Shown here: in pieces, positions 3,301 to 47,000 of the stretch | Layout of the letters: each line of letters opens with the position of its first letter | Position numbering within the stretch: the first letter of the stretch is position 1 | From: Cliona cf. orientalis | Taxonomy: Eukaryota > Porifera > Demospongiae > Clionaida > Clionaidae | Reading direction: 5' to 3' | Assembly: GCA_963930775.1 (NCBI GenBank) | Contig: OZ005696.1 | Coordinates: 1,984,001 to 2,048,000, forward strand | DNA: 64,000 nucleotides | Notes under the pieces: model-generated | What the model was told of the DNA's origin: nothing | Databases searched by the model: none | Seen by the model: the letters and a program-made list of their open reading frames with translations, nothing else | Translations under genes and position numbers: made by a program

Positions 3301-6300
3301 AAAGAAAAAGCCAGCTAACGATAAGACCACTGCTGGTGATAAAAGCACACCAGGAAGATCAAAACAGTTCTCTCCAGAAGAGCTACTGGTGTTGCTAGAC
3401 ATTCCTCCGTCATCTTCTTCCTCGGCTGGAAAAAGTTCGAATAAGAATAAAACACCGACTGCTAAAGCTAAAGGCAAAGCGAAGGACAAGTCAAATCAAG
3501 ATGGCCGATACGTCTTACAAAGCTCCAATGCTACGGCTAAAATGGAAGAACTGAAGGCCTCTCGGGCTGGTAAGCCAATGAAGGAGTATGTTATTGAGAC
3601 AGACTCGGAATCCGCAGACAGTAGCTCATCAGGAACCAGTTCATCACGCTTCTCTCCAGACAGCGGCAGCTCTAGTGAGAGCAGCAGTGATAGTAGCAGC
3701 GAGGAGGGGGGAGGAGGAGGGGAAGAGGGGAGTGAGACCAAGGCCAAGCCACCACCAAAGAAGATACCAGCTAGAGGCTCCAAGGGAGGTGTGGTCAGAG
3801 GGCGTGGTGGAAGGGGGAGAGGAGGGAGAACGCAGAGAAAGGGGGAAAAAGAAGAATCAAGTTCTGGTGAGAGTAGCTCTGAAGATGACGAAGAAAAATT
3901 TGAGAGGAGGAAGAAGCCTACGGCCAGGGCTAGAGGGGGCAGGGCTCGTGGTGGCCGAGGTGGGCGTGGCCCCCGAGGGGCGGGTAGACAGGAGACCACA
4001 CCCAAACAGCAGGGGAAGACTCAGCATCCCGGTCACATTGTTAGCATCCCTACAAACCTACTGAGTCATAAACCAGCCAGTGGAAAGAAGAGAAAGGTTG
4101 CTGCTAGCAAAACAGTGAGTGCATGTTTTATGCATGTGTATACTGCATGTAGTGCTTTTGGTGGCACGATACGAATTGTATTAGGAAATGATCGTCAGAC
4201 ATGCATGTACATTTATGTGTCATCTAGGGTGAAACTGAAAAGGCAACCACTGCTGACTACATCCCCGATCTCCCAGTTGACCTTGCAACCCTCTACGCCA
4301 CAAAGGGCGGGGTTGACCTTGGCACCTTGAGCGAACTCACCAAAAGTGTGAAAGACGAAGATCTGGAAATTGGCATAGTAGGGGGCTATCGCTCGAAGAG
4401 GACCTGCGTCCGCATGCGGGAAGAAATCACTAAACTTCAGGAGATCTTGAAGGACAATGGATCTCCGGAGGTGAGGCCTTCTCCACCAGCAAGATCAAGG
4501 ACGACAACTGCCGCGAGAGTGAGCACCAAAGCTCGATCTTCTGGTAGGACAAGTGACGTGGAAGGAGGAAGTGGCGGAGGACAAGAGTCAACAACACCTG
4601 TGGTTGGTTCATCAGCTTCCTCAGCGCCAGTCAAGAAGTACAGGAGGCCAGCATATAGTCAGTTTACACACAAGAGGAGAAAGAGAAGGAAAAAGCAACC
4701 CGAGGAAGGTGAGCAAAGTTTAATAGTGCATGAAAATTGTAAAAGTGATTGCTTGACCTACTCCTCACGTCTGTATCTAGTGATAGTCACATTGTAGGCT
4801 AAAGTGAACCTGCCTTATGTTGATCCAGTTTGCATAAATCAATCTGCTATATGCAGGATGTGCAGTTACTATAATAATATTTCACTGCCTTTCTCATTAA
4901 TTTTGTAGAAGCCCTCTGGCAGCCAGCCAGCAGAAAAGGAGGCTCTGGTGAGTCCTACAAACCAGTCTATCTCTTCTCCACCTTCCTGGCCAACAAAGCC
5001 GCTCTTGCCGTCGAAAAGAATCGCTACAATTCTATCATTCAGTTCCACCAAGCTCAACCCAAAGACCCTGGCTTCTTGAGACTACCACAGACAACAGATG
5101 AACAGTCTAAACCTCGGCGTGGAAGCATCGGTAATCGAAAACAGACAGATGCTGATTCTGGAGAGGAAGAGATGTCTGCAAAGGAGACCAAGAGTACACC
5201 TAGGGAGCAAAAAAGACGCAATTCAGGAAGGACTAGTGATGGAGGATCGGCGACCCGAAGGACAAGAAACAGTGAGATCGAGAATGCTGATCGAGCACCG
5301 TCTCCCCAACCTTTCCTTCGCTCCAGTCGGCGTTTGAGGCAACAGAGAAACCGAAGCAATGCTTCACCACCTCTGCAGTCGCCTACTTCTCCGGACGGTC
5401 CTAGGTCACCACTCCCTCCCAGTCCTCCCTCGGGAGTGAGACCACGCCCAAGAAAGACCTCTCAGAACACCTCTGGAGGGAGTGGCAGTGCTGTGCAGCA
5501 AAGATCACTGCGAAGAAAACGTCAGCAGCAGCACGAAGAGTCGCCCACCAGCCCAGTACCAGATTTGTTTGAGACAAGAAGATCGCAGCAATTGGAGGAG
5601 ATGGATTCACCGAGTGATGATGAGGAGAGAGGAAAGGAAGGCGAAATGAGTGATGGAGGAATTGGAGCGAGAAAGAGAGCTCGTTTTGATGATGGTGAAG
5701 CCGATAAAAACTTACTTTCTAGTCCGAGTATGCAATCACCTGAGCAACAGCGCTCTATACCCGCGCCCAACTCCCGTGAAGAGGAGAATTACACAATCTG
5801 TCACGGAACACCGGTGAATAAATTAGTGAGTGATGACATCTCCAGTCCAAAGAACTGGCCTCCATCTTCTTCGTCATCCTCCTCTCACCATCATTCGCGA
5901 CAACATCATCAACAACAGATGCAAAACCAGCAGCAACTTCAGCACACGCAGCACGGCGGCCAGTACCCACACCATCCCCATCACCACCAACAGCAACAAC
6001 AGCAGCAACAGATGCGTGCACACGAGCAGCATATGCAACAATACGCGGCTGCGGCTGGTGGTGCAACGCAACCCAGCACTGGTCATGCAGCAGCAGCACA
6101 ACATCACCAGCAACAGCAGCAGCAGCATAGAGCTCCCAGTACTCCTTCGTCGGAAGCTACGTCATTTTCACCGTCGATGCTTCATCCGGAGTCTTCGTCC
6201 TCGCCAGGATTTGACCACCGTTCAGCTGCTGTCGCTGCTGCTGCTACAGGTGCTGGCGGTGGTGGTCATGCGGCCCCAGGAGGGGCGGGGCTTAGCAGTA

Positions 6301-7640
6301 GTGGTAGTGGTGGAGGAGGAAGTAGTGGTGGGCGAGCGAGTGCTGCTGACTATGCCCACCGACAACATCAACTTATGTCTGCCGCTGAGCACGCCCACTT
6401 GCGAGAATCAAACAGCAGTTGGGCCACCGCTGGTCTCCACCCCCACCAATTCCAGGGTGTCCCAGGAGCCTATCCCGGTGCGTACCCGCCTATGTACAAT
6501 CCTAGTATTGCAGGGATGCATTATCACGGTCAGCCTATGCCGAGTGCTAATTACCCCTACCCTATGCCGTACTGGGGTCACCATCATCCTTCAGCTGCAG
6601 CTGCAGCTGCTGCTGGTGTCCCGCAGCTTGGAGAACACATGCTCCAGCAGCAACACCACCACCATCAGCAGCAGCAACAGCAACAACAACAACAACAACA
6701 GCAGCAGCATCGTCAAGCAGCCACCTCAAAGGAAATGCCAAGTCATCATGAGGTCTTGCAGCATCCACACATCAGTGGCCACACTTCGGAGTCGCCACAG
6801 TCGAGCAGCATACTCATGCGAGGTGGGTCATCTTCCTCGGCGCAGAGTGCGAGTGTGACGTCATCTTCGACTGCTGCGGGGAAGCCGTCGTCTCGAGGGC
6901 ATTATCTGTCACCTCAGGCTGCAGCGCTGCACCAGCTAGCGTCGCCGGGAAGTGCCACTACTCCTCACGCTCTCTCCCACCAGGTACCACACGGTGCAGA
7001 ACACCTTCCTCCTGGTGCTCACCCAGCCACCGCAGCCTCTTTTCCTTATGGTTTCGACTCTAGTGCTCACTCTCTGTCTCACATGCACATGCTGCAGCAG
7101 TCACAGATACAGCCTCAACTGACGCGGCCACTTCCAGGCGTTTCTCCTCATCATCTCCCCCCTCACATGGCCGCCACCAGGGGGATTTGGTACTCCCCTC
7201 AGCACGTGGCGGCACATCCGATGATTCCGGGGGCCATCGGTGCAGAAATCCCTGGACATCCAGCGCATTCAAAGAAAGCAATGAGTAAGAGTTCCAAGTC
7301 GGCAACATCTGTCGACGGTGATAAAAATCGGAACACCAACAACAATAATGTGAGCGTTGTTGCGGGGGCCCCTATGAATCAGAGGGCAGGAGAGCTTATG
7401 AATGCTAACACGGTGACATACCCATCTGGTGCACACAGCTCGTCTTCATCGCCGTCAATTACCCCAGGGGCCACTTTCTCCGTCGAGAACTTGGCAGCTC
7501 CCTACAGTGGTGCTCACATGATGGGTGTGTTGACCACACCCCACACTCCACCCACTGGCCAAGGTCAAAGGTTTGGCAGCAGTAGTGCTGGAGAAGGAAG
7601 TTTACCGGCAGTCTCCACGATTTTGAAACAAACTAGGTAG
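371..7640 (+). CDS. Large low-complexity, probably nuclear protein (3' part, five exons)
   Basis: Family not recognised. Exons 371-480, 1093-1183, 1547-4114, 4228-4708 and 4909-7640 have GT..AG borders and matching phases, giving 1,993 codons and a TAG stop. The 5' end lies upstream of the window, because the first exon begins at an acceptor. The first exon encodes a short globular-looking stretch (ERIGVDSKGTVYWYDGG). Long Gln, Ala, Ser and Thr tracts follow. At about 3790-4000 there are basic RGRGGRGRGG and RGGRARGGRGGRG runs (AT-hook/RGG-like) next to Ser/Glu-rich acidic blocks. Two conserved-looking islands stand out: YIPDLPVDLATLYATKGG to MREEITKLQEIL (4258-4450), and FLANKAALAVEKNRYNSIIQ (about 4985-5045). 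The last exon is rich in Gln, His, Ser and Pro. The composition suggests a chromatin or transcription co-regulator; this is inference. Its 3' end faces the Rab11-FIP gene convergently. Confidence 0.8.
561..632 (+). repeat. tRNA-Lys-like sequence, SINE head or tRNA pseudogene
   Basis: This stretch folds as a complete cloverleaf: a 7-bp acceptor stem GTGGTCG/CGGCTGC with G:U pairs, D arm GCTC/GAGC, a 5-bp anticodon stem CTGGC/GTCAG around loop AGCTTAA (CTT anticodon), and T arm CTGGG/CCCGG. An A-box (TGGCTCAGTGGTAG) and a degraded B-box (GGTTAGATTCC) are present, and a T-run follows at about 637. Position 33 is G instead of the invariant U, and the T loop is mutated (TTAGATT). It lies in an intron of the first gene. 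I read it as a tRNA-derived SINE or pseudogene, not a working tRNA. Confidence 0.6.
685..766 (+). repeat. Two-copy direct repeat (39-bp unit)
   Basis: A 39-bp unit beginning CTGTGGTGCTCTAGTACAG occurs at 685-723 and again at 728-766 with two substitutions, separated by 4 bp. It is intronic, just downstream of the tRNA-like element, and may be part of the same inserted element. Confidence 0.7.
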
Positions 7641-26329: not shown

Positions 26330-29300
26330 CTACTTAAAGTTAGAATACTGAGAAAACGAGTTAAGAAACAGTAGCATCAAGTCATGGATGAACTGATACT
26401 GCTCCTGTATTCAAAGACAATGGTAAGTATAAATTGTAACCTTTAATAATATCATAATGTACTTTATATGTGCATTCTCTAGCTAATGAGTATACTTTTA
26501 ATATTTTTTTAATCACTTACCACTGTCTGTACCATCCCTGGTTTCTGAATGCGAAGTGCCTTGACTGCCTGAAAGACATCAACAATGCTCTCTGTCTTGC
26601 AACACTCGATGCAATTCAGCAAGGCACAGAACACCCCACATCTGCTGATGGTGTCACTGAAAATAATAAGAAATTAAACAATATTTGACTGGAGCATCTA
26701 GTCAATAATGTTATAACGATTCTAATTTCAAGCTGTTTAGAATGCACTGCAGCTTCAAATTTATTGTGAACACTTTCAGTGTGTCCTTCTGGGGTGTATC
26801 AGTGGATGTGTGCATGCTGATAAAGTATTACTCAGAGGATAAAAAGGGTTGGGACATGTACAGGAGATGGTTGCCCCTCCACTTATTAAGAAAGGAGGGG
26901 CATAATCTCCCATATACTTCAATCTTTGCTTGGAATGTGGGTTGGGTATTTTAGAGCGCCTCAGAATGCACCTCACCTATCTCAAACATTCAGGCCACAA
27001 GCAGGTGTCACTGACCTAGGTCGCAGCTATATATCTGGTGTGCCCCATCACTACTTCAATGCCTCTAAGCATCCTACCCTTCTGATATTAGTCTAATCCA
27101 CTTACAGTCCGTGAACGACAATTGGTTTGTTTCCCGTCCTCCTCTGAATAAGAAAAACTTCATCGATGATGTTCATGATGGCCTGTGGATTTTCACAGAG
27201 ACCCTCTTCTGTCCAATTAGTCATGTGGAACTGTGTTATCCTTCTCATATGTTCATTCTGGTATGGAAAACAGTAGCTTTTTTTAACCAGAAACCAAATA
27301 GATTGATCTTTACCTTATGATCAGTGACACCAAATGTTCGCATCATGTAGCCATCATGTCTCTTGCTTTCCAAAGTAAAGACAGAGAAGCCTCCGTGTTT
27401 AACACCATCGATTCTTGTATTGGCCTTGACTTTTGGCCAGTACTGATAGCAAATATCCTGAAAATTCATAATTGGTCAATGCTCGTTACTAGGGGGATAA
27501 AATTATGCATGCAATAATAATTATGCAATTGCAATGCACCTTTCCCTTTTCCTTGGTATCTGACAACATGACTATAACTGCACACTCTCTCTCAAAGAGC
27601 ATTTTCCAGAAATCTTCAGTTGTGTTTGCCATTGGGGCTTGGGCAACAATGATACCACGTCTTTGCTTGTATGCCTTAATTATTTGTAATTGAAATAAAT
27701 ATGAATCACTTAATAAGGTACAAATTTGTCAAATCAGTCATAGAAATCTAGCTTGCTTACATTAACAAAAGAAGCATTGATGTAGGTTGTTTCAATGGTT
27801 TGAGCTCTAAGAATAACTCTCCATTTGTCAGCTGTAGAAAATGAAAGCTAATAATTATTGTTTCTTTCCTCAGTATTATTATGCTAGCACTTACGTGGAA
27901 GGTAGTTGCTATTTCTGTTTTTATTTGGACATCTAATAGCTGTCGCTCGCTCAATGTGCTTCTGATTTGGTGATATTTGCTCCAGCACCTATCAAAAAGT
28001 TTAATGGAATTTCCCAGCTGCTTAGTCTTTGCACTCTCACAGTATCATACACGTGCAGCTGGTTTGGCTCGAGTCCATGGAAACATGTCCCCCACCCACA
28101 GACTGTCCCTGCTATTTAGACTTCCAGGCAGCCACACAATTACGAAATTCTCGAGTCTACACTTCCCTTTATAGTATTATGCATTCTCTCTTATTGGATC
28201 CATGGACCATATAATTATAATTAGACAATATTGGGATCACCTTGAACTGTGTCTCATATCCATTTTGTCCCGTCTGAATTTCTGTTTGAAACAGTCTCTC
28301 CATTGCCCGCTTCATCTCTCCGGCTGGGATCTTAGTGTCTCCACAGATCAGCCACTCCAGCACAGCATCATGGATGAACGCATACTGGTCCTAGAATTTG
28401 CCATAAGAGAATGTATTGCACAGAAATATGCCACAAGTATATATTTAATTTAATAGTGCTAGCTGAAGCATAATAATACTGTACCTATAGCTGGTATTGA
28501 TACCTGCTAGCCACCAAGCTAGGTAACTGTACGTAGTTATGTAGCTAATAATTTAGTGTTGTCATTTCTTACTGGTGATTGAACCATCTTCATCCTCTCA
28601 GTCCTCATTTTGGTCACAATTGCTGGAATATTGACAGTCCCCTCTCTAGCGGCTTGAGCAAGAGCAATATCGATGCTTATCAGTGTTCCTGTTCTTCCCA
28701 CTCCAGCACTGCATAGTCAATACAGTGGTTTTTAATCAACAAGATTACATAAGTAAAAAATTTAATTTTTAATATTCTATTCCGTATAATAATGGAGATA
28801 AAAATTTTAATGGTTATGGCTTTAATTATAAACCTGCAGTGCACAAGTAGTGGTCCTCTCTTTGGTTTATGAAGTGTCTTGATCCTTCGTAGGTACTGGA
28901 GTAAAGGTCCAGCATACTCAGGCACTCCATGGTCGGGCCAGGTAGTGAAGTGAAACTGAGTAACCTTGCGCAAATTGGGACCCCCTCCTGGTTTTGATGC
29001 CTGCATGACATCAATAATCAAATTTTCTACACATATTAACGACTGTTATGAAATTGAAGGTGCATGTGGAAAGTGCCACATGTAGATTTTCTTAGTCCTT
29101 TATAAATTAATTAATGGCTTAATAAGTTAATACATACCACAATGTGCATTGTCCGGATTATGTAATCGGCAAACACTTGCTCTTCGATGAGGTTGATCAT
29201 GAATGGGCCATATTCCTCGCTGCCTGACTCGGGCCAGTACCTTTCACACTTCCTCTGCCGTCCCTCCATCAGGTTGGTGAGCATGACAATATTCCTCACC

Positions 29301-32300
29301 TTCTCCTGCCACACTAGCCTCCAAAAGTCAGTAATGGTGCCATGGACTGGAGCTAAACCAATGGTATAGTATGCATGAAAATCCAATGTCAGTGTTTAAT
29401 CTACCGTGCACGTATATACCAATCCTCAAAACCTAAGGGGCAGCCTTCCCATTGCTTGCTCAGGCAAACCTAATCCAGTAAAAGACAGAACCACTTTGAT
29501 AGGTGTCTATCCTTGATGAATGGGGGTGGTAGAAAAATACATAACGGTTGGTTAACTCACCTTGCACGGCAACGTATTTTCTTGGTTGGAGGTATCCCTA
29601 TTGTGATCAGAGTATCATGATTGTTAATGTTATCGTATGTGTATACTGTCACATGTTAATATCTTACATCAATGTAGGATGCATTGATGTAGTCATGATG
29701 ACAATTCATATAGCCAGGGATGGGTTCTAGTATGACCCTGTTGTCATCATCTGTGCAAGGCAATTATAGATCTTGAGTGTCACGTACTAGCAAAGCTAAT
29801 CAGAATGTGTTAGCTTACAGCACATGATGTTTCTGAATCGATTCCGACTTCTATTTCCTGAAGTTCTTCCAACAATCGCTCTTCGATCTTCCTCCCCACT
29901 GGGCAGCAGCTATACATGATGATGATGATGGATGCATGAATTGTTTAATAGTAACCAAAATGTTAGCCGATAAACCAGTGGTGCATGGCTATGCTGTTTC
30001 ACAGTGTTCCAAGACTCACAAAACCTTACCTGATATTCTTCAATGAAGCCAGTGTTGCCGAGGGCATGGTAGGCTGACACATGTTCTCCAAACTTGTCCT
30101 TCTTGATTGGAATACTGGTCACTGCTGATCTACTCTTCTTCTCTTCCACAGGCTGCTTCTCCTTCACAAACACCTTCAGATTTGTACAACCCTCTACACT
30201 CCCAACCGAGTTGCTGACGATAAAGTCGTAGATGCCAGCATGCTTTCCCTCAGCTGATGCAATGAAAATGGAGCCGTTATTGCAGTGCTCCCGGCCATCC
30301 TGTGACTCCACTTGCATTCTCTTTCCATCAAAAAACCAAGTGACAGTTGGGCGAGGGATTCCGGTAAACGATATCCTAAGGTTGACCTCTTGACCTTCAC
30401 GCACAGTTATGTTCTTCATGTACTCCTTGAGTCTGGGCTCAGTGGCTGGAAAATGTATAATACCATTCTTACCATAACTATTAGTGATTGTTTCTTTGTT
30501 AACTTTAAAAAAGAACAGCTACCCGAGTGCCTCTTTCAAATATCGAGCTCTAATTTTAGATTTGAGGACTTCTTTGCCAGCTGTATTGTGTCTTGTATAG
30601 CTAGGATGTTTACGACGGTACTATATTCGCTCAGTGACACTCATATTGAGAATGTCAGTTCTGCACATGTGGCTCTGTGGCGATATTTGGTCTGCAAGAA
30701 CATCTGCTAATGGCTACTGTAATACAGTTTATCTAAACAGTTCACTGTATAGTTTGTGTTTGTCATGTGCTGGGTAGCTATCTCCAGTCACAGACAGATC
30801 GAGCTTGAGAATTCCAGCTTGACCAAGCCTGTTGCACTATTTGGACTATCTGTCCTAGCTGGCATTACCAGTAAGCTATGACCTGAAATTTTGCTTATAA
30901 ACAAATGTGAGTAGTGTACATGAGAAATGCATGAAAGGCCTTTGTTCTCGATATGGCGGATACTATAGCAAGCATCACAGTACCTGACAGTTTATAGTAC
31001 TGAGTCTGTTTTTTGCCACGTGAGGCTTTCTACTCAGCATGATTCCTTCTAATCGCCTGTCAAGGCTTCATCCAGGAGTGTATTTGGGTGGCCCATATGC
31101 TCCTTCATGCTTCATCATACATCAATTTTCCTGGAAATTCTAATGTAGCCATGAGTGTACTCACGTTTAATTTCATCATAGATCTTCTCTAGTGACTGCG
31201 GAGTTGAGCCCAGTAGTTGACTATCTCGATAAATCGCTGGAAATGTTTTGTTCAATGCATCCATGGAACTCACTCTTGCCTGCTTCTTCCATATTGCTCG
31301 GTGTTTCCTATTGATAATACACTGATAAGTGCATGTAGAAACATTCCCTGCCAGTGGCATTGTAGTTAAATTATATGGAAATGGCTTTAGATGTTCTGGG
31401 TGTTAATTGCAACTCATTCAGCCACACAGTATTTCTTACCAGAGCATCCAAACAACGGGAATAGCTGCTAAGGTGACAATCACTACTATGACAGCCAGTA
31501 GAGCAGAGACGATTACTGCAGCTTTTGAACCTGGATTCACTTCTGCACGATAGAGAGAAAATCATGCACAGTGCATGTAATAGAATTATTGGAATATTAT
31601 GGGCTGGGTGACTTGACTGGACTTACTGGCTGCAACCTCTGTTGGAGTAGTGTTGTGATTTATGTTAATAGGTTCTTTTTCCGCTTCTGACACAGTATCT
31701 CTCGACGTTGTTGTGATTTCATCATTATGAATTGTTACCTTTGGTGTGGAGGTACTGACTGATCCTTTTGATGGTTGATCTGCATTCATAGATGGGCCAT
31801 TATGGTAAGGTTGGCTAATAGGCCAGGAAAGGTTAATGCATTAACCCCTTCATTCATGCACAGACTATACAGATATTCCGGGTCCATATATGTCTACAAT
31901 TCAGTCATATCTCAGAGTCCCCACCTAATTGTACAATAATGTTTAAACTTTAAGGCTACCTGTAATTGGATTTGAAGGTTTTTGTGTCGAAGGTGTTGTG
32001 GTAGTCACTGTAGAATGTGTTTCTGCAATAATCTCTGGGAGTTTGATAGCTGTCACTGGAGGCTGAGAGGTGGTGATAGGTGGAGGTGGTGATGGTGTGG
32101 TGGTGGGTGGAGCCGTGTTGGGGGGAGGCATTGTAGTTGGTGGAGGGGGAGGGGGATCTGTGGGGAAATCAATAGTGTAAGAACAACTCTAACATTGCAA
32201 GCACATCATGTACTTCCTGTGGCCATGTATAGACCAATATATGGCCACAGCTGCAGCTACCTCACATTAATGATTACATGAATCCAAGGTAGCAAGAATG

Positions 32301-33349
32301 GACTTAATTACTTGCTAAGAAATTCATAGTATAGCTCGATAAATTTTTTTTACTGATCTTTAAACCGTACGCGTATTCACCTGAAATGAATGGCAAAGGC
32401 GTAGCTCTGAATGTGGCACTGAAAGGGCCTTGGCCATCAGCATTCCTTGCTGCAACCCTGAACCGATACTCCTCTCCAATTTGTAGAATCCCTAAGCCGT
32501 TGTTAGCATTGGAAATTTCACTGAAGATGCGGGTGTCTTTGGTTGTGACAGTTCTAACTTCGGTGGTGTTTATTCTCCCATAGTTTACGCGATAGTCTGT
32601 GATTGGTGAATTTTGCTGCAGACAAATCACAGGCTCCCACCCCATCTCAATACGGTAAGGATCAGTGCGAATTTGTCTTGCAAAGACACTGCGAGGTGGA
32701 GCTGATGGTGGAGAACCAGGATTACCTAATTAATTAATGATAGTATTTAATTTATTTCTGAATTATAGTTTGATCAGGTATCTGTCACAGCTATTGAGTA
32801 TTGGAGAGTTAGAATGTAGTCTCTATCTGAATTTATTTTGAAGTTATAGCGTTCATTTTACCTCCAATGTAAATGGTAAGCGTTGAAGATAATCTTCCAA
32901 CATTATGTCCAGATGCTCGCACTCTCACTCGGATATTTTGATTGCATGGTAGATCTGGTATGGAGGCCTCCGTGGACAGTGTAGAGCTCAGACAGTATTC
33001 GCTGATTCCACCACTTGGAAAATCCACACAGACCCTCTCCCAGCAGGCTGGATGGATGAGTTTCCACTGTACAACTAGTCGGTGTGTTCCAGTCTCGTCC
33101 CTCACTTCGGCTGTTATATCGTTTGAGAAGACCTGCTCAATTAGCAAGTGATTTAGTAGGTCATCTATTGTGCATGCATGATCAAGTGCAAGTGCAAGTA
33201 ATAACATAATAGTAATATGTGCAACTTCATAGTAGTTTTGTTTGCTAGCTAGTGTATAGCTTACCCGAGTTAAGAGTGCATTGAGATTTAGCTGTGGATG
33301 CAATGATGAGAATAGTCAAAAGAGAGGAAACCTTGACCTTGAGATCCAT
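26330..33349 (-). CDS. Gene A: receptor tyrosine phosphatase, FN3x2-TM-Ig-PTP-deadPTP
   Basis: Twenty-two exons give 1,143 aa in one frame. Signal peptide [20 protein letters not shown]; a Cys-containing FN3-like domain (33164-32862); FN3 (32725-32381); Pro/Thr stalks (32157-31960, 31779-31627); TM (31542-31440); juxtamembrane (31307-31165). A cysteine-less I-set Ig domain comes next (30445-30030, residues about 447-540), followed without another TM by PTP D1 (residues 583-875) and D2 (876-1143). D1 is intact: [34 protein letters not shown] and [10 protein letters not shown] with catalytic Cys at about residue 779. In D2 the WPD loop reads NWTEEG and the P-loop VVHGLDTISRCG, so Cys is Gly (about 1073). 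D1 should dephosphorylate phosphotyrosine at the plasma membrane; D2 should be regulatory only. Remaining exons include 29909-29819, 29750-29668, 29597-29561, 29352-29138, 29000-28834, 28708-28573, 28390-28241, 27988-27895, 27831-27761, 27674-27540, 27457-27314, 27257-27106, 26656-26521 and 26404-26330. Confidence 0.9.
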
Positions 33350-33702
33350 ATCAGATATCCTTCTTCACTTATAGATGATGGCACTAGGTAGATCTAGCAA
33401 CCTACATGTAGCTAGGCTAGCCAAGTCTAACTGTCACAATCAATACCCAAACTCCACAATTTGCTTATTGTAGCTATATCTGTTGATCTGAGATGTTGAG
33501 GACAAAGGCCTGCTGTCTAAAGTCCCTCAACACCCACTCACGAGATTATAGTATAGACCTGACATGTGCCACAACCCTCACAAATGAGTCAAAACAAAAT
33601 GATTCATAAGTATGCAAGATATGCATGGTAATATAACTATCTATAGGAAGTTCTGTGAAGTTAGGCTTCATGTAGCTGCTGGTCGGAGCAAAACGATTTA
33701 CA

Positions 33703-35796
33703 TCACTTGTTTCTTGTCATGGTTGTGATGACATCATACGTGTCTGATAACTCCATATTTTCGTTAGAATGGTCGGCTGTGAATCGCAATTCTGGGTAGT
33801 CGTATTGTACGCTGATTTGTCTCGAGCTAGAGACGGGATTTCTGGTTTGAATTTGTGCATTAGTTCCCCCTATAATATCTTGCATTCTATTGTATGCACA
33901 GTTTGGTGTGCAAGTTAGTGATTCAGAAGAACATCTTGAAGTATCCACTTGGGTTGGTATTCTTGCATTGAGCAGGAGTCTGGCTTCACTGTGTATGCTA
34001 GGTGAGCTGTAATGGGGACTTGATGCCTGTGAACTGGAATGGCTTCTGTGGGGGAGTTGATTCTCACTCCCAGACATGTATAAGTGTGGACTTTGACCTA
34101 TACTGATGGAAGCAGAACCTGTATTCATTGATGAATGGTTCTCTATGGATCCAGTATTGGGTGGATATGTTCCTTGTTCTTTTGATCTGTTTCTGTGCTT
34201 CAATATTAGGCTGAAATTAAAAATGTGTAAAAGTCAATTACAATGTATTGCTTGTTATTAGCTAGTGTGTACTCACCATGTGACTAATAATATGACAATG
34301 GTAATGAAGAGGAGTACAGAGACAAGACACAAAATTAAAATTCCCACCAATTGACCAGCATCCAGGGTGAAAATCTAAGAAATTTTATACCAAAAATCTC
34401 ATCATAAAAACTTTAATATGTATACACGCATCCTTTTCAACAGGATCCTTACTGAAGGTGTTGTGGTAGTCACTTTAGGATGCGTTTCTGCAATAATCTC
34501 TGGGAGTTTGATGGTTGTCGCTGGAAGCTGAGAGGTGGTGATAGGTGGAGGTGGTGATGGTGTGGTGGTGGGTGGAGCCGTGCTGGGGGGAGGCATTGTA
34601 GTTGGTGGAGGGGGAGGGGGATCTGTAGGGAAATCAATGGTGAAAGTACAACACTAACATTGCAGCGAGCATATCATATACATGTACTTCCTGTGGCCAT
34701 GTATAGACCAACGTGGCCACAGCTGCAGCTACCTCATAATGATTACGTGAATCCAAGGTAGCAAGGATGGACTTAATTACTTGCTAAGAAATTGATAGTG
34801 TAGCTCGATAAAATTTTTTACTGATCTTTAAACCGTACGCATATTCACCTGAAATGAATGGCAAAGGCATAGCTCTGAATGTGGCACTGAAAGGGCCTTG
34901 GCCATCAGCATTCCTTGCTGCAACCCTGAACCAATACTCCTCTCCAATTTGTAGAATCCCTAAGCCGTTGTTAGCATTGGAAATTTCACTGAAGATGCGG
35001 GTGTCTTTGGTTGTGACAGTTCTAACTTCGGTGGTGTTTATTCTCCCATAGTGTACACGATAGTCTGTGATTGGTGAATTTTGCTGCAGACAAGTCACAG
35101 GCTCCCACCCCATCTCAATACGGTAAGGATCAGTGCGAATTTGTCTTGCAAAGACATTGTGAGGTGGAGCTGATGGTGGAGAACCAGGATTACCTAATTA
35201 ATTAATAATAGTATTTAATTTATTTCTGAATCATAGTTTGATCACAGCTATTGAGTGTTGGAGAGTTAGAATGCAATCTCTATTTGGAAGTTATAGCGTT
35301 CATTTTACCTCCAATGTAAATGGTAAGTGTTGAAGAAATTCTTCTAACATTGTGTCCAGATGCTCGCACTCTCACTTGGATATTTCGATTGCATGGTAGA
35401 TCTGGTATGGAGGCCTCCGTGGATAGTGTAGAGCTCAGACAGTATTCGCTGATTCCACCACTTGGAAAATCCACACAGACTCTCTCCCAGCAGGCTGGAT
35501 GGATGAGTTTCCACTGTACAACTAGTCGGTGTGTTCCAGTCTCGTCCCTCACTTCGGCTGTTATATCATTTGAGAAGACCTGCTCAATTAGCAAGTGATC
35601 CAGTAGGTCATCTATTGTGCATGCATGATCAAGTGCAAGTGCAAGTAATAATATAATAGTAATATGTGCAACTTCATAGTAGTTTTGTTTGCTAGCTAGT
35701 GTATAGCTTACCCGAGTTAAGAGTGCATTGAGATTTAGCTGTGGATGCAATGATGAGAATAGTCAAAAGAGAGGAAACCTTGACCTTGAGATCCAT
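33703..35796 (-). CDS. Gene B: chimeric FN3 receptor with tyrosine-motif tail
   Basis: Six exons: 35796-35712, 35611-35309, 35193-34849, 34622-34453, 34374-34277 and 34210-33703; 502 aa. The signal peptide, two FN3-like domains and Pro/Thr stalk are almost identical to gene A, with the same exon lengths (85, 303 and 345 nt). After the stalk the protein switches to the TM segment and 169-residue tail of gene C. The tail has YNRMQD, YDYPEL and TYDVI near the C-terminus and no enzyme domain. The stalk exon ends TTTTPS just before a GTAAGG donor that matches the donor of gene C's pre-TM exon, so the fusion point lies inside this exon. Likely a plasma-membrane receptor sharing ligand specificity with A but signalling through tyrosine motifs; the role is inference. 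Confidence 0.88.
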
Positions 35797-36160
35797 GTCA
35801 GATATCCTTCTTCTCTTAGGTATATTATAGATGATGGCACTAGGTAGATCTAGCAACCTACATGTAGCTAGGCTAGCCAAGTCTAACTATCACAATCAAT
35901 ACCCAAACTCCACAATTTGCTTATTGTAGCTATATCTGTTGATCTGAGATGCTCAGGACGAAGGCCTGCTGTCTAAAGTCCCTCAACACCCACTCACGAG
36001 ATTATAGTATAGACCTGACATGTGCCACAACCCTCACAAATGAGTCAAAACAAAATGATTCACAAATATGCAAGAAATGTATGGTAATATAACTATCTAT
36101 AGGAAGTTCTGTGAAGTTAGGCTTCATGTACTAGCTGCTGGTCGGAGCAAAACGATTACA

Positions 36161-39100
36161 TCACTTGTTTCTTGTCATGGTTGTGATGACATCATACGTG
36201 TCTGATAACTCCATATTTTCGTTAGAATGGTCGGCTGTGAATCGCAATTCTGGGTAGTCGTATTGTACGCTGATTTGTCTCGAGCTAGAGACAGGATTTC
36301 TGGTTTGAATTTGTGCATTAGTTCCCCCTATAATATCTTGCATTCTATTGTATGCACAGTTTGGTGTGCAAGTTAGTGATTCAGAAGAATATCTTGAAGT
36401 ATCCACTTGGGTTGGTGTTCTTGCATTGAGCAGGAGTCTGGCTTCACTGTGTATGCTAGGTGAGCTGTAATGGGGACTTGATGCCTGTGAACTGGAATGG
36501 CTTCTGTGGGGGAGTTGATTCTCACTCCCAGACATGGATAAGTGTGGACTTTGACCTTCAATTGATGTGTTGATGGAATCAGAACCTAAGTTCATTGATG
36601 AATGGTTCACTGTGGATCCAGTATTGGGTGGATATGTTTGAGAAACTCCTTGTTCTTTTAATCTGTTTCTGTGCTTCAATATTAGGCTGAAATTAAAAAT
36701 GTGTAAAGTACAATGTATTACTTGTTATTAGCTAGTGTGTACTCACCATGTGACTAATATAATAATGGCAATGAGGAGAAGTATAGAGACAAGACACAAA
36801 ATCACAATTCCTACCAATTGACCAGCATCCAGGGTGAAAATCTAAAAAAAAATTTCACCAAAAATCTCACCGTGAAAACTTTAATATGTATACACGCATC
36901 CCTTACTGAATTATTGGTTCCTGGGCGATCGATTTGGAATGCGAATCCATTGGCCGTCCTGATTCCATTCATCCATCCCTCAGCCATTTCCACCAGTGTG
37001 CTCGCAGTGATACTCCCATTGCTATTCGAATAGACTATATCAATAGACATCACTACAGTATTGCTCCCATCCGAAGAGCAGGTTAGAGAGGAATTTATGA
37101 AATTGTCGCTGCTAATGTCTCCGTCACCAGCACTTGAGAGAGAAAACTCCAATTCCATGCGTAGCATGTTGAGCAAAGATGGTTTTACATCTTCATTTAA
37201 ATCATGCTATAAATAAAAGAGAGAGGAAGAATAATATTATATTAGAATGAAGGAGACAAAAGTTATGCATTCTTACACAACTAATATCATTGAGTGATTG
37301 TAGCTGCATACTGAATTGAGCTGTGGAATCAGAGATAAAAGTTAATATGAACGTGGTATGCAGTAGCTATTGACATATGAAAATTTGTATGGATACATAC
37401 CTCTTTCTGCTATGTGGACACTCTCTTCTGTCTTATCCTGGCTGCTAAAGGCTTCACATTGATACGTTCCAAAGTAGGACTCTTGAGGAAATGTATTGTT
37501 GATACTGGCCGTATCAAAGGTCACTGTCCCATTTTTATGCGTGACTGCAAGCTCTCTGCTTCCCTTCACCCATCTCAGCTGATCTAAGAGCTCTATACTT
37601 ACATTCTCCACCACGGAACAAGTGAGAATCGGCAGTGATTCTGCACCACCTGTTGAAAGTATTTGTTGTGTTGCTGTGGCAACCACTGGAGGTGCACCTT
37701 TTGGAGTAAAATGATGTCAAAATTAATTAAATCATTAGTGCCGACCATATAAATCTTAATGCCTACCATAATGGTGAAGCATTAGTGTGGCTGATCCAAC
37801 AAGTAAGGTAGACAGTTTCAAGCCATCATACGAGTCTATGAATTCTAGATAGTTGGAGCAATTTGGTGAAAACCCTAGACTGACATCGTTTAGTTTGAGG
37901 AATAGCTGTAGTTCATACAGTCCTTCATCATCAGATACTGGGGAGGGTAGCTCTAATGTCACTTGAGCTGCTCTTTCTTCCGTCTTGAGAATGAAATTTT
38001 TATAAACATCCCTCGGACGCTTAAGATCCGTATGTATGTATGGATTCAACTTTTCACCGTTATAAAACGCTTTTAATTCAAGTGCAAGCTTATGTGAATT
38101 TCGGCGAAAATCAACTTCTCCAATTGGATTCAGCGGTATGTTCACATTGACCTTCAGTGGCACTCCACTTGTGTAGTGCACTCTTGTGATCTGATTGATA
38201 CTAATAGACTTCATGGGTGAAGATAGTCCTGCATATAATTTAAAAACGTTAATTAAATTTAATTGTCTTAAAGTGCTATATGTTACCTTACCTCCATTGA
38301 TTGCCTGAAACTCCACTGGCTGAAAGATGGCATAGTTCCTCAAAGCTTGGAGAACGATTGTAGCACATGTCTTATTGACACGACTTGCAAATCCAAATGA
38401 ATCAATCCGAGAAGAATATGTCCCAGCGCTTGTCGACGTGGTCCTTGGAATTTCCAGTCTGTTCCGAGTGACAGTCATTGGTCTACTTCTGCCTCTGGTT
38501 TGACTGTTCAGAATTACAATAGTGTCATTGTGCCTCCATTCGTATGTAATACTTCTGAAAGAATCGAGTAACGTCCTTCCACTATAATCTGGTGCGAGTC
38601 CAACCATGAATTGCAAGGGTGTAGGTGGAGTGAATATCACCTCTGCTGTTCCTATCGGACTAAGCAAACCTGAAGAATAATGTAGCAATTATTATAGATA
38701 ATTTTTGAGCAATGATGATGACTGATGTAAGGATGAGCCTGCATGTACTCGATTATTGATTAGTGTCACTGTGTTAATAGTATAATAGAAAACTACTTGG
38801 GTGATGCATTATTGTATAAAGATAACCTCTATAGTCATCTCTAAATTTAAAACTGTGCTGTTAATTACCTTTGACTTGAATATCAACGTGTCCAACCGCA
38901 AGTGTTGTATGACTGCTAGCTGAGAGTACGTGGCAGAAGTATCGGCCATGGAGAGGATGGTTTTCACTGATAGTGATGGTTGTGATCGGTGTTGTGCTGG
39001 GAAAACTGGCTTCAGGATAGTGGTTTTGTGTGGAGGACCTCCAAATGTACTCCACTGGGAAGGGAGGGGTCGGTATGATGGTGCACTGGAGTGGTACTAG

Positions 39101-39287
39101 TCGGCGGCTTCTGAAAGGTCCATTCTCTGGATAAGCTGTCACTGCTGCTATGTATTCTACGGTATAGCATATTGTCAATGATTATTAAATTTATAGGTGT
39201 TTTTTACTGACCTTGAGATGCAGCAATCTGGAGGTCTGCTATTGAGATACTGAGCATGAGTGGAAGAATTCTTCTAAAGTCCATCAT
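36161..39287 (-). CDS. Gene C: four-Ig-like-domain receptor with tyrosine-motif tail
   Basis: Nine exons: 39287-39212, 39156-38869, 38669-38292, 38228-37767, 37697-37401, 37320-37277, 37206-36907, 36841-36747 and 36686-36161; 821 aa. Signal peptide MMDFRRILPLMLSISIADLQ; Ig1 with canonical LQCTI...W...RYFCHV; two more divergent Ig-like regions; Ig4 (LTCSV...W...YQCEAF). A 44-nt microexon then leads into a roughly 100-residue membrane-proximal domain with SNSNGSITASTLVEMAEGW, which looks SEA-like (uncertain). One TM (LVGIVILCLVSILLLIAIII) and a Ser-rich tail with YNRMQD, YDYPEL and TYDVI follow. It is a paralogue of gene D and donates its TM and tail to gene B. No ligand can be inferred. Confidence 0.87.
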
Positions 39288-39953: not shown

Positions 39954-42900
39954 TTATTCTTTCACCATATCGTTCACGCTTTGATATCCCATTGAGTCAG
40001 TTTCTCCTGCATGTAAATCCCCTTTGTTCACTGTCGGATAATCATAGTGATGCACACTCCTCTGTCGTTGGTTGAAAAACATGCGATCATTGTCCATATT
40101 TTGACTTGGCTGATTTTTTGATTGCAGATGTGGATGGTACAGTCCTGATAGATCCTGTCTCCTATTGTAAGCGTAGTTTTCCATCACAGTGAGTGATGAA
40201 TATACAACTTCCTCATCTTCATTTGTACCTTGAACTTTTGGCAAGGATGCATCCCTGCTGTGTGTATTATTATTTGGTGCACCGTAATTGAGTGGATTAT
40301 GAACACTGACTGAAAACGCTGGAGGAATTAAGTCTGGAGGTCCACCGGTTGTATTGAGAAGGAGTGGCACGGATCGAGAATTTTCAACTAGTCTGTCATA
40401 ATGAGCCATTCTGGTAGGTAGGACTTGAGCGGAACCTTCGCTTTGATGAAAGGCATGGTTCAGGGTTGCTGTCGAATTGTCCATAACAGATTCTCTCTCC
40501 GGGAGAGCAATGGGATTAGGCTTAATATGTTTATGCATTAGATCTAGCTTCTGCTTCTTGGAATGCTTTCTTTTTTTAATCGCAATGCAACTGCCAAGGA
40601 AAGGTCAGAGTATGAGACGTAATAATCATTGTAAATGGTAATATCAAGAAGCATAACTGCATTTGAGGTTTGCTTACCATGTTACCAGGATGGTGATGCC
40701 AACCACAATGACTCCAAATGAAAAAGTGCTCGAAATAATAGCTATCAATCGTCCAGTATCCACTCGTCGAAGAGATTGATTCTAGGATAGAGATGACAAA
40801 TAATTACCACAATAATTATCAATTTTAGCCTTACAGTTCCAGGACGAGTGATTTGGAATGTGGCTCCACTGACTGTCCTGATTCCATTCATCCATTCCTC
40901 AGCTGTTTCCACCAGTGCACTAGCAGTAATACTCCCATCACTGTTTGAATAGATGACATCTGTTGACATGATAATACTACTTCCTTCAGAAGAGCAAGCA
41001 ATAGAAGAGCGGGCAAAGTTATCTGTGGTGAAGTCAGCCTCTGTCTCATAAGAAAAGGAAAATAGCATCTCCTCAAGTAGCATGTCAAGCATCAACTGCA
41101 GTGTCTCTTTACTGACATCCAGCTAGTAAGAAAGGATTGCAGAAAAGCTATGCATAATATGAATACCTAACAATTTTTTTGCTTACACATTGAATGTCAT
41201 TAATTGGTTCCAGCTCCATCATGAAGTTAGCTACAGTAGATGGATAAATGTTATGATTGTGTGCGCTTCATGAATCACAATAGCATACCCCTTTCTGCAA
41301 TAAGAATGCTGTTCTCTGCTTCAATTTGGCTTGCTAACATGGCTTCACATGTGTATAGTCCAAACGGGGATACCCCAATTGGGTTAGTAGCTGTATCGAA
41401 GGCCAATATCCCACTGTCTTGTACTTCTGCTAGTACTTTTCCATTTTTCATCCACCTCAGCTGTTTTACTGATAGACTATCATCCTCCATCACAGAGCAA
41501 GTGAGCTTTGGTAGTGGTTCTGTACCATCGGCTGAAGTTAGTACCTGCTTTGTTGCCTCAACCATCACTTGTGGTGGGTCTATACATATAATTTTTCAAA
41601 GAATCTCCGTAGATCAAATAAGTACACAAAATTTATATGCACAAATATTTTGTCATAAATGCCTCCCACTAATTACCTTGTTGATGAACATAGAGTGTAG
41701 CTGAGCCCACGAGTACAAGTGGAAGGTCTAGGCCATCAGAGGTCCGTACAAAGTCCGTGTAATCTAGACAGTTTGGTGTAGGCAGCTGTGATATGTCAAC
41801 AAAGAGCTGTACTTCATACACCCCCTCATCTCCTGGCATAGGGCGTGGTAGCTTTAGTCTCACCATGATGGCCGTTTCTCCTAGCATGGGTGCAACTCCT
41901 GTGATCACTTCGCTGGGAAGTCGGATATCTTTGGATGGATTCAATCCGGTAGGTCTTATTAGTTCGCCATTATAGAATACTCTCCGTTGAAATGTAGTGT
42001 TTGGATTACGAATTAAACTGGCATGACGTTGTGCTATACATATTTTAGTCTCAATTGCGAGTGGTTCCCCATTTATAAATGACACTTCCTTCGTAATGAA
42101 ACTCATAGGTGAAGGTTTAAGCTTCAGCACTGCATGAAAATATAATATCCATCACAATAATAATATTATTATCTAATAATAATTACCGGTGATATCGATT
42201 GATACTTCACCTAAAATTGAAATATGGATAAATGATAATTGCCATGGTACAATAACAATATTAGTATCTGAAGCATTGCCACTCACTATTGTTGGCAAAA
42301 AGCTGCACCTCTTTGAAAATGGCATAATTCCTCACGACGACGAAAACAATCCTTGCACAATTTTTGCTGGTAAAATTCGAGATACCGAAAGAGTCGATCT
42401 TAACCGAGTAAACACCGGCATCTTCAGGGCTGGTCCTCGCTACTGTGAGGCTGTTATTATTGATCATGAAGCCACTACTTTCTTGTCTACTGTTCACCAC
42501 CTTATCAGTCAAGTCTGTGTAGTTATGCTGCCATTTGTAAGTGATACTGCTCAGAACATTCAGTAGCTCTTCATTTTCCGGCTGTAGCTCAACCTCCAGC
42601 TCTAGTGGCCCAGGTGGAGTGAATACATTATCACTAGTCCCCACTGGCTGAAGTATGCCTGAATGAATAATAACAAAAATTTGTGATACTCCAATGATAC
42701 TGAAAATGCCTTGCTTGGTGCATGTATAATGCACATTGCTAGACTAGCTAAATAAGTACTTCTGAATCAATAGCTACTTGAAGAGAAAAAGAAATGGCAC
42801 TAAACATTCATAGTCTTAGCTCACTATTGGTTATAGCTAGCTATCTACCCCCTGTGACTCACCAGTGGGACTTATTGTGACATGCCCAACTGCAAGTGTT

Positions 42901-43294
42901 GTGCGATTGCTGGCTGAAAGGACATGGCAGTAGTAGCGACCATAGAGAGGGTGATTGTCCTTGATCAGTACAGTCGTAAATGGTGCTGAGCTGGGAAAAT
43001 TGGCTTCAGGATAATGGTTTTGTGTGGAGGACCTCCAAATGTACTCCACTGGGAAGGGAGGGGTTGGTGTGATGATGCACTGGAGTGGTACTAGTTGGCC
43101 ACTTTTGAAGCGTCCATTCTCAGTATAAGCTATCACTGTGACAGCATAATCTCCTCCTAATGCATGCATCAATGTAAAATTGCAAGGTGTCTATAAGGTC
43201 TATACCTATACTAACCTTTGGTTGTTGACTGCACATCATAGAGCAGTGCGATGATGAGAATTAGCTGCCCAAGATGGCACCTTAACTTTATCAT
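39954..43294 (-). CDS. Gene D: four-Ig-like-domain receptor with ITIM-like tail
   Basis: Ten exons: 43294-43216, 43156-42863, 42658-42287, 42210-42187, 42129-41677, 41579-41289, 41230-41187, 41122-40835, 40781-40678 and 40590-39954; 861 aa. Same plan and exon phases as gene C: signal peptide (MIKLRCHLGQLILIIALLYD), Ig1, two divergent Ig-like regions, Ig4, a 44-nt microexon, SEA-like domain, one TM (IAIISSTFSFGVIVVGITIL), then a 211-residue tail. The tail carries VVYSSL, which fits the ITIM consensus, plus YAYNRRQD, YDYPTV and GYQSV. A 24-nt microexon (42210-42187) is present here but absent from gene C. Expected at the plasma membrane; SH2-protein recruitment is inference from the motif. Confidence 0.87.
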
Positions 43295-44009: not shown

Positions 44010-47000
44010 TCATTTCTTGCTTTGAGAAGATGCATCCTCAGTGCTGACTTGAGTGGTGAACCAGTGCCTCCATTGCTGGCGAGCTTTTGGATTTCGACAC
44101 CCGTGAAAGAAGAGCAGCAGTGGTCCTTGCACGGCAAAGAAAACAAAGAAGACAAAATTGAGGACCATGTCCACCATGTGCCGCGTTGACACTAGTTTAG
44201 TCAACATTCCAGCAATCTCAAACCCGCAGCCAAATCCCACCAACAGGGTGACAGTTATGAGCCCACAAGCAATGCGTAGCTGTTTTTTGAAGAATCGCAT
44301 GCCCTCTCCCTTGTCAGATTTATCAGTAGCGTGTCGTTTACATTGTGAAATCATGATGGATGCAAACACAATCCAGTTGAAAATGTTGATGAGAATGACT
44401 GGAAATAGTAAGCCAACCCAAAAGGCCATTCCAGTTGGTGTGAAACAGCGATGCATGTAGGATTCCTTGAATCCCGTGCTAGTGGCCAGTACGACTATGA
44501 TCAGGGGTGTCACTGTGTTTTAATGGCAATGATTGCACATTATTTTATCTGTCAGTGAGTAAAATTAATTTAATGTTACTTACGCCAAACAAAGAGAGCT
44601 GCTTTGAGTACAAATTTGGGAATGGTTGGCACCAGCACCTTGACGAGATTCCGGTAGAGGAAGAATGCTTCAACAAATGTCCACCCAAAGTAGACAAGTA
44701 TGAAGTAGTGGCACAGTGCAGCTAAGATTCCACATCCTATTTCACTGTATGTAAAACATAAGATGGTTGTGCTGGATGCCAGCAGTACCACATATAGACA
44801 TATGAGGCAAACTGAGATGTTGATCAGAATTTTGCTGTGTTCAATTGAACTCAATTCTCTGTTTGGGAAAAAAAATGACAGTGTAGCTATCATAACATAG
44901 GGTGAGCTTTCGTGTGGTTCGATCACCTTGTTTTCAAGTAGGTTACTAGGAGGAAGATGAGGCACATGCAGGAAGCAAAAACAACACAGATCAAAGTGAT
45001 GCATAGTAATCTGTCGGTTACACTGCCAGTTGGCACTATCACTGGATGGTGACAGCTATTATCCTGTATTAACATAATAAATGCAGGAGTATCTTAATTA
45101 TCTCAGCTGCCACTCTCCCTAGCTCTCGGCTTCTCGCCATGAGGAGGTCTGAGTGGAGGTAGCTATGCTGGCTAGAAACAGGATTTCGTACTTTCTTACC
45201 AAAAGCAAAGTAAAATAACCTCCACTAGCTACAAAGCTGCAATTTATATGATTAGCCAGTTCCAGAGATGTGATAATTGGTGTAGAAATGTTCCATATTC
45301 CTGTATTTAAATGTATTTACTGTCAGGCAGAAATACAATAATCATTTAGTTACCCTTCAAGGTGTCCCAACTGCCACAGCAGAATAACTGAAGGCTAGTG
45401 TTCTGTAAGTGTGTACATATATATTATATCATATTGACATGTTTATAAAGTAGCTATATTATTACCTTTGGGATTATGAATGTGATTACAATTTGTTCCA
45501 TTGAGCTGGTACCGGTGATCTGTGTACGATTCATCTCATGTATGCCAATGATAACAGATGATACCTTCTCGCTTGTCTCGCTGGAAAGCATAAACAGTTC
45601 TTCTTGTACAAACATGCAAAAAGAGAACATCTGCATTGGTCTTGGACTGCCATCGTGGTAGCTTTTAGATCCGTTCAAGTGTGATTCAAGAGTTGTAACT
45701 GCCATTGTAATTGGCATGGTGTGTTTGTAATGTGTGGCCAATTCAATATTGAAAAATCTTCCACTGCCAGTTTGGCATTGTTGTTCAAATGCTCTAGTTT
45801 CTTGGTGGGTGAAGTTTCCAGTGAAAGTTACTGCTGGGGAGTTATTTGTGGGGACATGAACTATCAGCAGTGCAAAATTCTCATGTGTGAAAAATGCTTT
45901 TGGGGTAGAAATATTTGTTCCTTTGATGAAATCATCGAGGAGTGTCAGTAGCCTAATAGTATTTCCAAATAAATACTAATCAGAAAATTTATATATTCTC
46001 CTTTGGTGTTGTTACCTAGCTGATTCAGAAGTATTTTTTCCTAATTGACTTGCTGCTAACTGATCTTCATTGGCCAGCATCAAGTTGCCAATTTTTCCCA
46101 AGTAATTTTCCTGAACCTATTTATTAATAAGAACGGCCAACCTTGCTTCCTCTCTCCCCCTCCCCTCATGTCTCATACAGCCTGTAGATTTTCAATTTTG
46201 CAGCTAAGCTCCACTATTAATAATGCTTAGCTGCATGTTGAGCTTAGCTGCAAATTGAAAATCTACAATGAACTGAGCAAACACACATTCAGCAATATTA
46301 TTGCAAACACGCGTTCAACAATATCTTTGCTGAATGTGTGTTTGCTCAGTTCATGAGTGCAGTTTTCCTTTAAGTTACTGTTTATCTCAGTCGGTCAAGG
46401 AAGCACAGTAGATATTATCATAATAATATTCCATATTAAGAAGTATGATTGTGTACGTACCATGTTTTGGAATAAAGAAGACACATTCCCAAAACTGATA
46501 TATAATATTTCTACCTTGTTTTCTTGCCCTATCTCAGTAATACATTGTGTTTAAATTGTACGAAAATATGCATAGGCCAACACATGGGTAGTGGTATTTT
46601 GGTGTTATCATTTAAAAATTGCAACCTTATCTGTGAGGCTCCTTTCAAGAGTGGCTGTAATAGTTGATGTGTCCTCAGCCAACAAACTCTCTCCTTCATT
46701 TCCCGTAATGTTCATGCAAGGATTTGGCAGATTATCGACTGTCTGTGACTTGTAAAAAAAACTATAATGATATTATGTAAATTTGTACTTAAAATCATTG
46801 CACTTTACCCGAGATTCTTCTTCTTGATCATTATTTAATGCCCTCTCGATACTTGATTGTGTGCCTAATTATTGGCAATAATAATATAACATGGCCATGA
46901 TTTTTTGTTCTTAGCTAGCAGTTTTATTTATTACTAGCAGCAAGAGTATGATAGCAGTATGCGTAAAAATTAAGCTCTATATCTATACAATAATTATATG

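Follow-up and report, generated by a model that had tools for sequence, protein, structure and literature searches.

A probable chimeric receptor gene arising by tandem duplication beside a receptor phosphatase gene in the demosponge Cliona cf. orientalis

Here we describe gene B, a receptor gene in a 64,000-nucleotide (nt) stretch of the demosponge Cliona cf. orientalis (contig OZ005696.1, positions 1,984,001 to 2,048,000; hereafter the window). Along the minus strand of the window four genes follow one another in the order D, C, B, A, with models built from splice signals and homology. Gene B almost certainly originated by a tandem duplication that placed the ectodomain of A, a predicted receptor tyrosine phosphatase, upstream of the transmembrane segment (TM) and cytoplasmic tail of C, an Ig-like receptor. 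The joint explanation we favour is that B is a real, young chimera made by one such duplication and works with A as a paired or decoy partner; this role, taken by itself, stands at even or slightly above it in our judgement.

The duplicated unit and its seam

Two minus-strand stretches, 36899-34456 and 34431-31991, are copies of one unit of about 2.46 kb lying head to tail, and a repeat search recovered 12 families of direct repeats that keep register at a spacing of 2447-2476. Aligning copy against copy gave 2404 aligned columns with 91 substitutions (71 transitions and 20 transversions) and 15 gap events comprising 77 gapped columns. An earlier note on this DNA had described 31990-34450 as repeated almost exactly at 34455-36900; the alignment bears out the repeat but not its exactness, as the copies are 96.2% identical without gaps (3.8% diverged) and 93% identical by genome search. 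In a genome of 216.8 Mb and 149 contigs, with the window on contig C8, a DNA search for the unit reported these two places only, both on C8, and the C-type tail exon was found at C and B only. The composition of the unit is as that note had it: it extends from the stalk exon of A through the ectodomain exons and 5' flank of A into the tail and TM exons of C, with breakpoints inside both genes, namely in the A stalk exon and at the end of the C pre-TM exon. Introns sit at the same places in both copies, and A and B are 95% identical in each of their two fibronectin type III (FN3)-like domains, FN3a and FN3b. The origin of B by tandem copying, which the note had proposed with the parents left unnamed, is likewise upheld by a single novel junction, by the matching introns and by both parents, A and C, keeping complete open gene models (Table 1).

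The seam is readable to the base. At the break, A reads ACACCTTC followed by GACACAAAA, B reads ACACCTTC followed by AGTAAGG, and C reads AATAATTC followed by AGTAAGG (longer context: A, ACACCTTCGACAC; C, AATAATTCAGTAAGG; B, ACACCTTCAGTAAGG). Sequence comparison thus confirmed that the B stalk exon tracks A up to ACACCTTC and then continues into the donor of the C pre-TM exon. The TTC common to all three genes constitutes a 3-nt microhomology, and the serine codon at the seam is TCG in A and TCA, followed by the donor, in C and B. Given that A and C are in the same phase at the break, the frame of B survives; the predicted phase was indeed kept, and B is open for 502 codons. Its coding sequence of 1509 nt (502 codons and a stop) is distributed over six exons at 35796-35712, 35611-35309, 35193-34849, 34622-34453, 34374-34277 and 34210-33703, separated by five introns that are all GT-AG, so that all ten splice sites fit. 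Unequal crossing-over between similar breakpoint sequences was considered and rejected, since the similarity of A and C over 300 nt is no better than that of shuffles (94 of 300 reach it). With no wider similarity between the breakpoints, the junction fits end joining or replication-based repair at the microhomology.

In the proposed mechanism, one tandem duplication joined the A stalk exon to the end of the C pre-TM exon at the 3-nt microhomology, and B thereby took from A its 5' flank and signal peptide, both FN3-like domains and the stalk, and from C the donor, TM and tail. About 14 extra nt reported near the seam are present in B at 34446-34433 (the complement of the string given earlier, up to register), about 7 nt into the intron on its C-like side; they may be an insertion in B or, with equal likelihood, the trace of a deletion in C between flanking short repeats. 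This sequence, ATCCTGTTGAAAAG, occurs once in the window. A templated origin was also tried and rejected, the longest other matches within the window, which was the sequence searched, being 10 nt and judged to be chance.

Divergence is unevenly distributed along the two copies. The higher values are those of the stalk-TM intron (14%, 8/57), the TM exon (9.5%) and the first part of the tail exon (8.6%). Introns 2 and 3 differ at 5.2% and 6.5%, the stalk at 4.8%, the FN3a exon at 4.0% and the FN3b exon at 2.0%, and the TM-tail intron at 3.3% (2/60), the intergenic part at 2.8%, intron 1 at 1% and exon 1 at 0/85. At 1% (4/392), the rest of the tail exon (33703-34094; copy from 36161) contrasts with much more divergent neighbours, which suggests conversion or strong constraint over most of the B and C tail exon. 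Uniform divergence along the unit was rejected: 4 of 5000 shuffles were as variable among alignment windows as the data, and 105 of 5000 had an identical run as long as the longest one observed (209 nt). In non-coding sequence, divergence is 6.7% (30/449) toward the unit ends versus 2.4% (11/452) in the middle (p = 0.002, for classes set after the profile was seen). Our reading of this pattern is that the middle of the unit was probably homogenised by gene conversion after the duplication. At synonymous sites the divergence amounts to 0.044 for the ectodomain and 0.054 for the TM and tail.

Table 1. Positions in the window of the duplicated unit, its seam and the surrounding genes
Feature	Position	Strand	Content
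Upper unit copy	34454..36910	-	From C: end of pre-TM exon, TM and tail exons; intergenic; from B: signal peptide, FN3a, FN3b, stalk
Lower unit copy	31989..34456	-	From B: TM and tail exons; intergenic; from A: signal peptide, FN3a, FN3b, first part of stalk exon
Seam	34453..34456	-	End of the B stalk exon: TTC shared by all three genes, then the base A as in C, and donor gtaagg
14 nt in B intron	34433..34446	-	ATCCTGTTGAAAAG; absent from C (inserted in B or lost from C)
Gene A, receptor tyrosine phosphatase (predicted)	26330..33349	-	22 exons, 1143 amino acids (aa): FN3a, FN3b, stalk, TM, I-set, PTP D1, PTP D2
Gene B, chimeric receptor (predicted)	33703..35796	-	6 exons, 502 aa: signal peptide (by eye), FN3a, FN3b, proline-rich stalk (A-like), TM and tyrosine tail (C-like)
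B TM exon (C-like)	34277..34374	-	
B cytoplasmic tail exon (C-like)	33703..34210	-	
B-A intergenic	33350..33702	-	3' flank of B and 5' flank of A; copy at 35797-36160 is the 5' flank of B
Gene C, Ig-like receptor	36161..39287	-	9 exons, 821 aa; source of TM and tail
Gene D, C paralogue	39954..43294	-	Open; tail with VVYSSL

The phosphatase parent and the tail of gene B

The ectodomain of A comprises, after a signal peptide (by eye), an FN3-like domain unmatched in Pfam, an fn3 domain found by Pfam and a proline-rich stalk. It is followed by a single predicted TM at residue 369, an I-set domain behind the TM at residues 447-535 and two stretches of protein tyrosine phosphatase (PTP) domain. The first of these, D1, has an intact HCX5R active-site motif, and with one TM and a PTP domain A falls within the receptor tyrosine phosphatases. 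In D2, HG replaces HC and WTE replaces WPD (by eye), so this domain is probably inactive. The cytoplasmic-side I-set (30445-30030) seemingly lacks the usual cysteine pair (by eye). No Pfam FN3 model matched FN3a; we call it FN3-like by its position and by its alignment with relatives on contig C4 (22-31% identity). Against solved structures its sole match was an rRNA methyltransferase at E 0.6, which was judged to be chance.

A protein search with the I-set and D1 region of A scored 7983 proteins, of which 6452 passed E 0.001, and the best 120 were listed. The best 17 listed matches (P0002-P0018) are demosponge proteins wherever a name or gene code is given (P0009 has none). Those named are Geodia barretti, Halichondria panicea and sequences with Em codes, taken for Ephydatia muelleri, with Amphimedon queenslandica at P0022; the matches listed further include a tick entry (P0019) and numerous receptor phosphatases of vertebrates. 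Proteins of Geodia, Halichondria, Ephydatia and Amphimedon also contain both I-set and PTP domains. In Geodia P0006 and Amphimedon P0022 the order I-set, D1, D2 is that of A, with cytoplasmic parts 48% and 43% identical to A, respectively. P0006 starts with MGNKSS, contains I-set, D1 and D2, and has no obvious TM (by eye), which fits a cytoplasmic position of the I-set. As judged from its sequence, A is a demosponge-type receptor tyrosine phosphatase. It differs from the R3 subtype, described in PMC5336234 as having extracellular FN3 repeats and a single PTP domain, with one member from a sponge, in that A has two PTP domains and so lies outside that class. B in turn differs from the demosponge I-set phosphatases in sharing only the ectodomain of A and none of its cytoplasmic part.

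The only family found in B is fn3; having no PTP domain, B is not a receptor tyrosine phosphatase. Elsewhere, a single relative of B was found among 7994 scored candidates of up to about 880 aa, an fn3-repeat protein with E 2.6e-6 and 27% identity over 23% of B. Among 7990 scored candidate proteins, none was related to C at E 0.001. C and D are Ig-like receptors with tyrosine tails, their Ig matches being weak and below Pfam cut-offs. The B tail has seven tyrosines, six of them common to C and one absent from C, and C has one that is absent from B; motifs in the B tail include YNRM (a YxxM motif), YPEL and YDVI. The immunoreceptor tyrosine-based inhibitory motif (ITIM) has the consensus [SILV]xYxx[ILV], and VVYSSL in the tail of D fits it.

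A and B thus have near-identical ectodomains and are adjacent genes in one cluster, as in paired receptors. The tail of A has PTP D1 with its active-site motif, and that of B is a tyrosine tail without a PTP domain. In the putative model for the pair, B would be transcribed from its copy of the upstream region of A, be displayed where A is and bind the same ligand. The tail tyrosines of B could be phosphorylated and read by SH2 proteins, so that B might act as a competing or decoy partner of A for the ligand, and possibly as a substrate of the A phosphatase domain when one ligand clusters both.

A second array with the same design

Relatives of the FN3b exon of A are located on contig C4 (27-31% identity). 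Over 110 kb of this contig, FN3a-FN3b ectodomains come with one of two kinds of downstream part: a TM with I-set and PTP D1/D2, or a different TM with a short tail. The short tail type, GIDMKECSAYGKVISPQPATEQPHIYETTT, occurs at seven places, and eight D1 exons lie in the same stretch. A stop codon directly follows the short tail in six of the seven, the seventh lying in a unit interrupted by an insertion; all seven carry tyrosines, and SAYGKV is present in six.

A tree was built from the eleven C4 units with both FN3 exons (five short-tailed, five phosphatase and one unlabelled, X1923), with tail labels assigned according to whichever TM and tail come next downstream. Four partial units (1902, 1908, 1943 and 1971 kb) stand outside it, as do the I-set-PTP genes at 1986 and 1993 kb, for which there was no FN3 match. 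The tail labels need three changes on this tree, and two sister pairs join different tail types, S1915/P1917 (support 100/98) and S1944/P1953 (100/99). In both pairs, homology of 88-89% extends from upstream of FN3a to about 10 nt into the presumed intron that follows FN3b. The two members of each pair share a strand, with the short-tail gene upstream of the phosphatase gene, the arrangement also seen for B and A. Moreover, S1944 and P1953 each have a remnant of a phosphatase-type TM exon upstream; B and A show a counterpart, each being preceded by a C-type TM and tail exon. The C4 pairs are older than B. It is possible, though less likely than not, that demosponges repeatedly make phosphatase/tyrosine-tail pairs sharing one ectodomain by tail switching at the ectodomain-TM boundary in tandem arrays, with B the youngest case and S1915/P1917 and S1944/P1953 older ones.

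Several observations in these arrays stand apart from the pairs. In the unit at C4:1923720-1929526, a short-tail exon (1927301) precedes a D1 exon (1927597), the earlier D1 exons being absent, and there is one stop on the FN3a side of the unit; this unit is perhaps decayed, or a read-through fusion. At C4:1904436-1905820, open reading frames resembling a tyrosine-recombinase retroelement (by eye) break up one short-tail receptor unit. Large tandem arrays of I-set-PTP genes occupy C15 7.88-8.06 Mb and C4 1.90-2.00 Mb. Genome-wide, the PTP exon with WPD and HC has at least 75 matches at E 0.001 and the I-set exon at least 45, some of them two per gene.

Alternative explanations and known systems

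The alternative we take most seriously accepts the chimera and denies it a function: B would be a recent duplicate drifting neutrally, its decay yet to come. We regard this as a considerable possibility, though well short of even, and several results weigh on its side or against a functional pair. Between A and B, the ectodomain has accumulated 9.5 synonymous and 17.5 non-synonymous changes (27 coding substitutions), and between C and B the TM and tail have 7 and 16 (23 substitutions) plus three in-frame indels. The corresponding ratios of non-synonymous to synonymous rates are 0.61 and 0.66, with values above 1 in the FN3b and stalk exons, where changes are few. Pooled, the two rates are alike (p = 0.18), giving no signal of purifying selection on B. 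In simulations, B stayed free of stops in 49% of histories with 25 random substitutions and in 25% with 50, and the low divergence of the copies points the same way. None of the seven B tail tyrosines fits the ITIM consensus. On C4, the tail labels over the whole tree show no more order than shuffled ones (as low in 235 and 221 of 500), the short tail is unrelated in sequence to the B tail (by eye), and the pairs could have arisen by gene conversion rather than duplication. Neutral drift is countered by the ten of ten splice sites that are GT-AG, by the absence of an internal stop in B with all three coding indels in frame, and by the depletion of indels in coding sequence (3 in 1506 nt versus 12 in 935 non-coding nt, p = 0.002, a comparison that pools constraint on A and C with that on B). 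The receptor design also recurs on C4, which makes selection for such receptor pairs plausible. B may plausibly be maintained by selection.

Two further alternatives concern how the structure arose. The whole C and A pair could have been duplicated and the middle then deleted from the A stalk exon to the C pre-TM exon. Such a course would leave exactly the same final structure, and C and D, 35-45% identical in parts of their ectodomains, attest whole-gene duplication at this locus; yet it needs two events, and no remnant of a second 3' part of A or 5' part of C lies at the seam, so we consider it unlikely. An assembly duplication or a mis-joining of haplotypes is very improbable. The copies differ at 3.8% of positions and by 15 gap events, no other copy is reported on the 149 contigs, and the seam combines an in-phase splice donor with an open frame; the concern is further weakened by the coding differences of B from A and from C given above.

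Origin of B by one tandem duplication, the course we prefer, is an already known kind of event. Chimeric genes formed by tandem duplication, polymorphic and checked by RNA-seq, are described for Drosophila in PMC5460883; there too, one duplication puts the 5' end of one gene on the 3' end of its neighbour. B differs in that both parents are single-pass receptors, that the join falls between ectodomain and TM in the same phase, and that it comes from a demosponge and is known from sequence. Among vertebrate paired receptors, which are defined in the review PMC3533184, the ectodomains of Siglec-11/16 are kept alike by gene conversion, according to PMC5701461. The sponge pair resembles them in its near-identical ectodomains, differing signalling parts and clustered genes, and differs in that one partner is a receptor phosphatase rather than an ITIM receptor, that the ectodomain is FN3-like and that the pair is known from its genes. 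A comparable arrangement is described in PMC5242461 for the uroplakins UPK2/3 and a tunicate PTPRQ relative without a PTP domain. These keep the membrane-near extracellular part of a receptor phosphatase on a short non-phosphatase tail after duplication, whereas B arose by fusion to the TM and tail of another gene, recently and with a visible seam. A direct receptor fusion with a readable seam in a sponge, of a design recurring in a second array, was not found in the open-licence literature, as represented mostly by titles and abstract openings.

Later change readily obscures how one receptor becomes two that are alike outside and unlike inside. In this early-branching animal the junction can still be read, together with its phase, the donor and both parents. 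A functional pair would make the start of receptor pairing directly testable and sponge phosphatase-receptor arrays a candidate recognition system. Should repeated tail switching prove true, these arrays would constitute a pairing system like that of vertebrate immune loci, with phosphatase against tyrosine tail in place of ITIM against the immunoreceptor tyrosine-based activation motif.

Elsewhere in the window, minus-strand open reading frames upstream of D (44010-45975) resemble an adhesion-type seven-TM receptor (by eye), and long plus-strand frames at 1517-7640 are Q- and S-rich with low-complexity runs.

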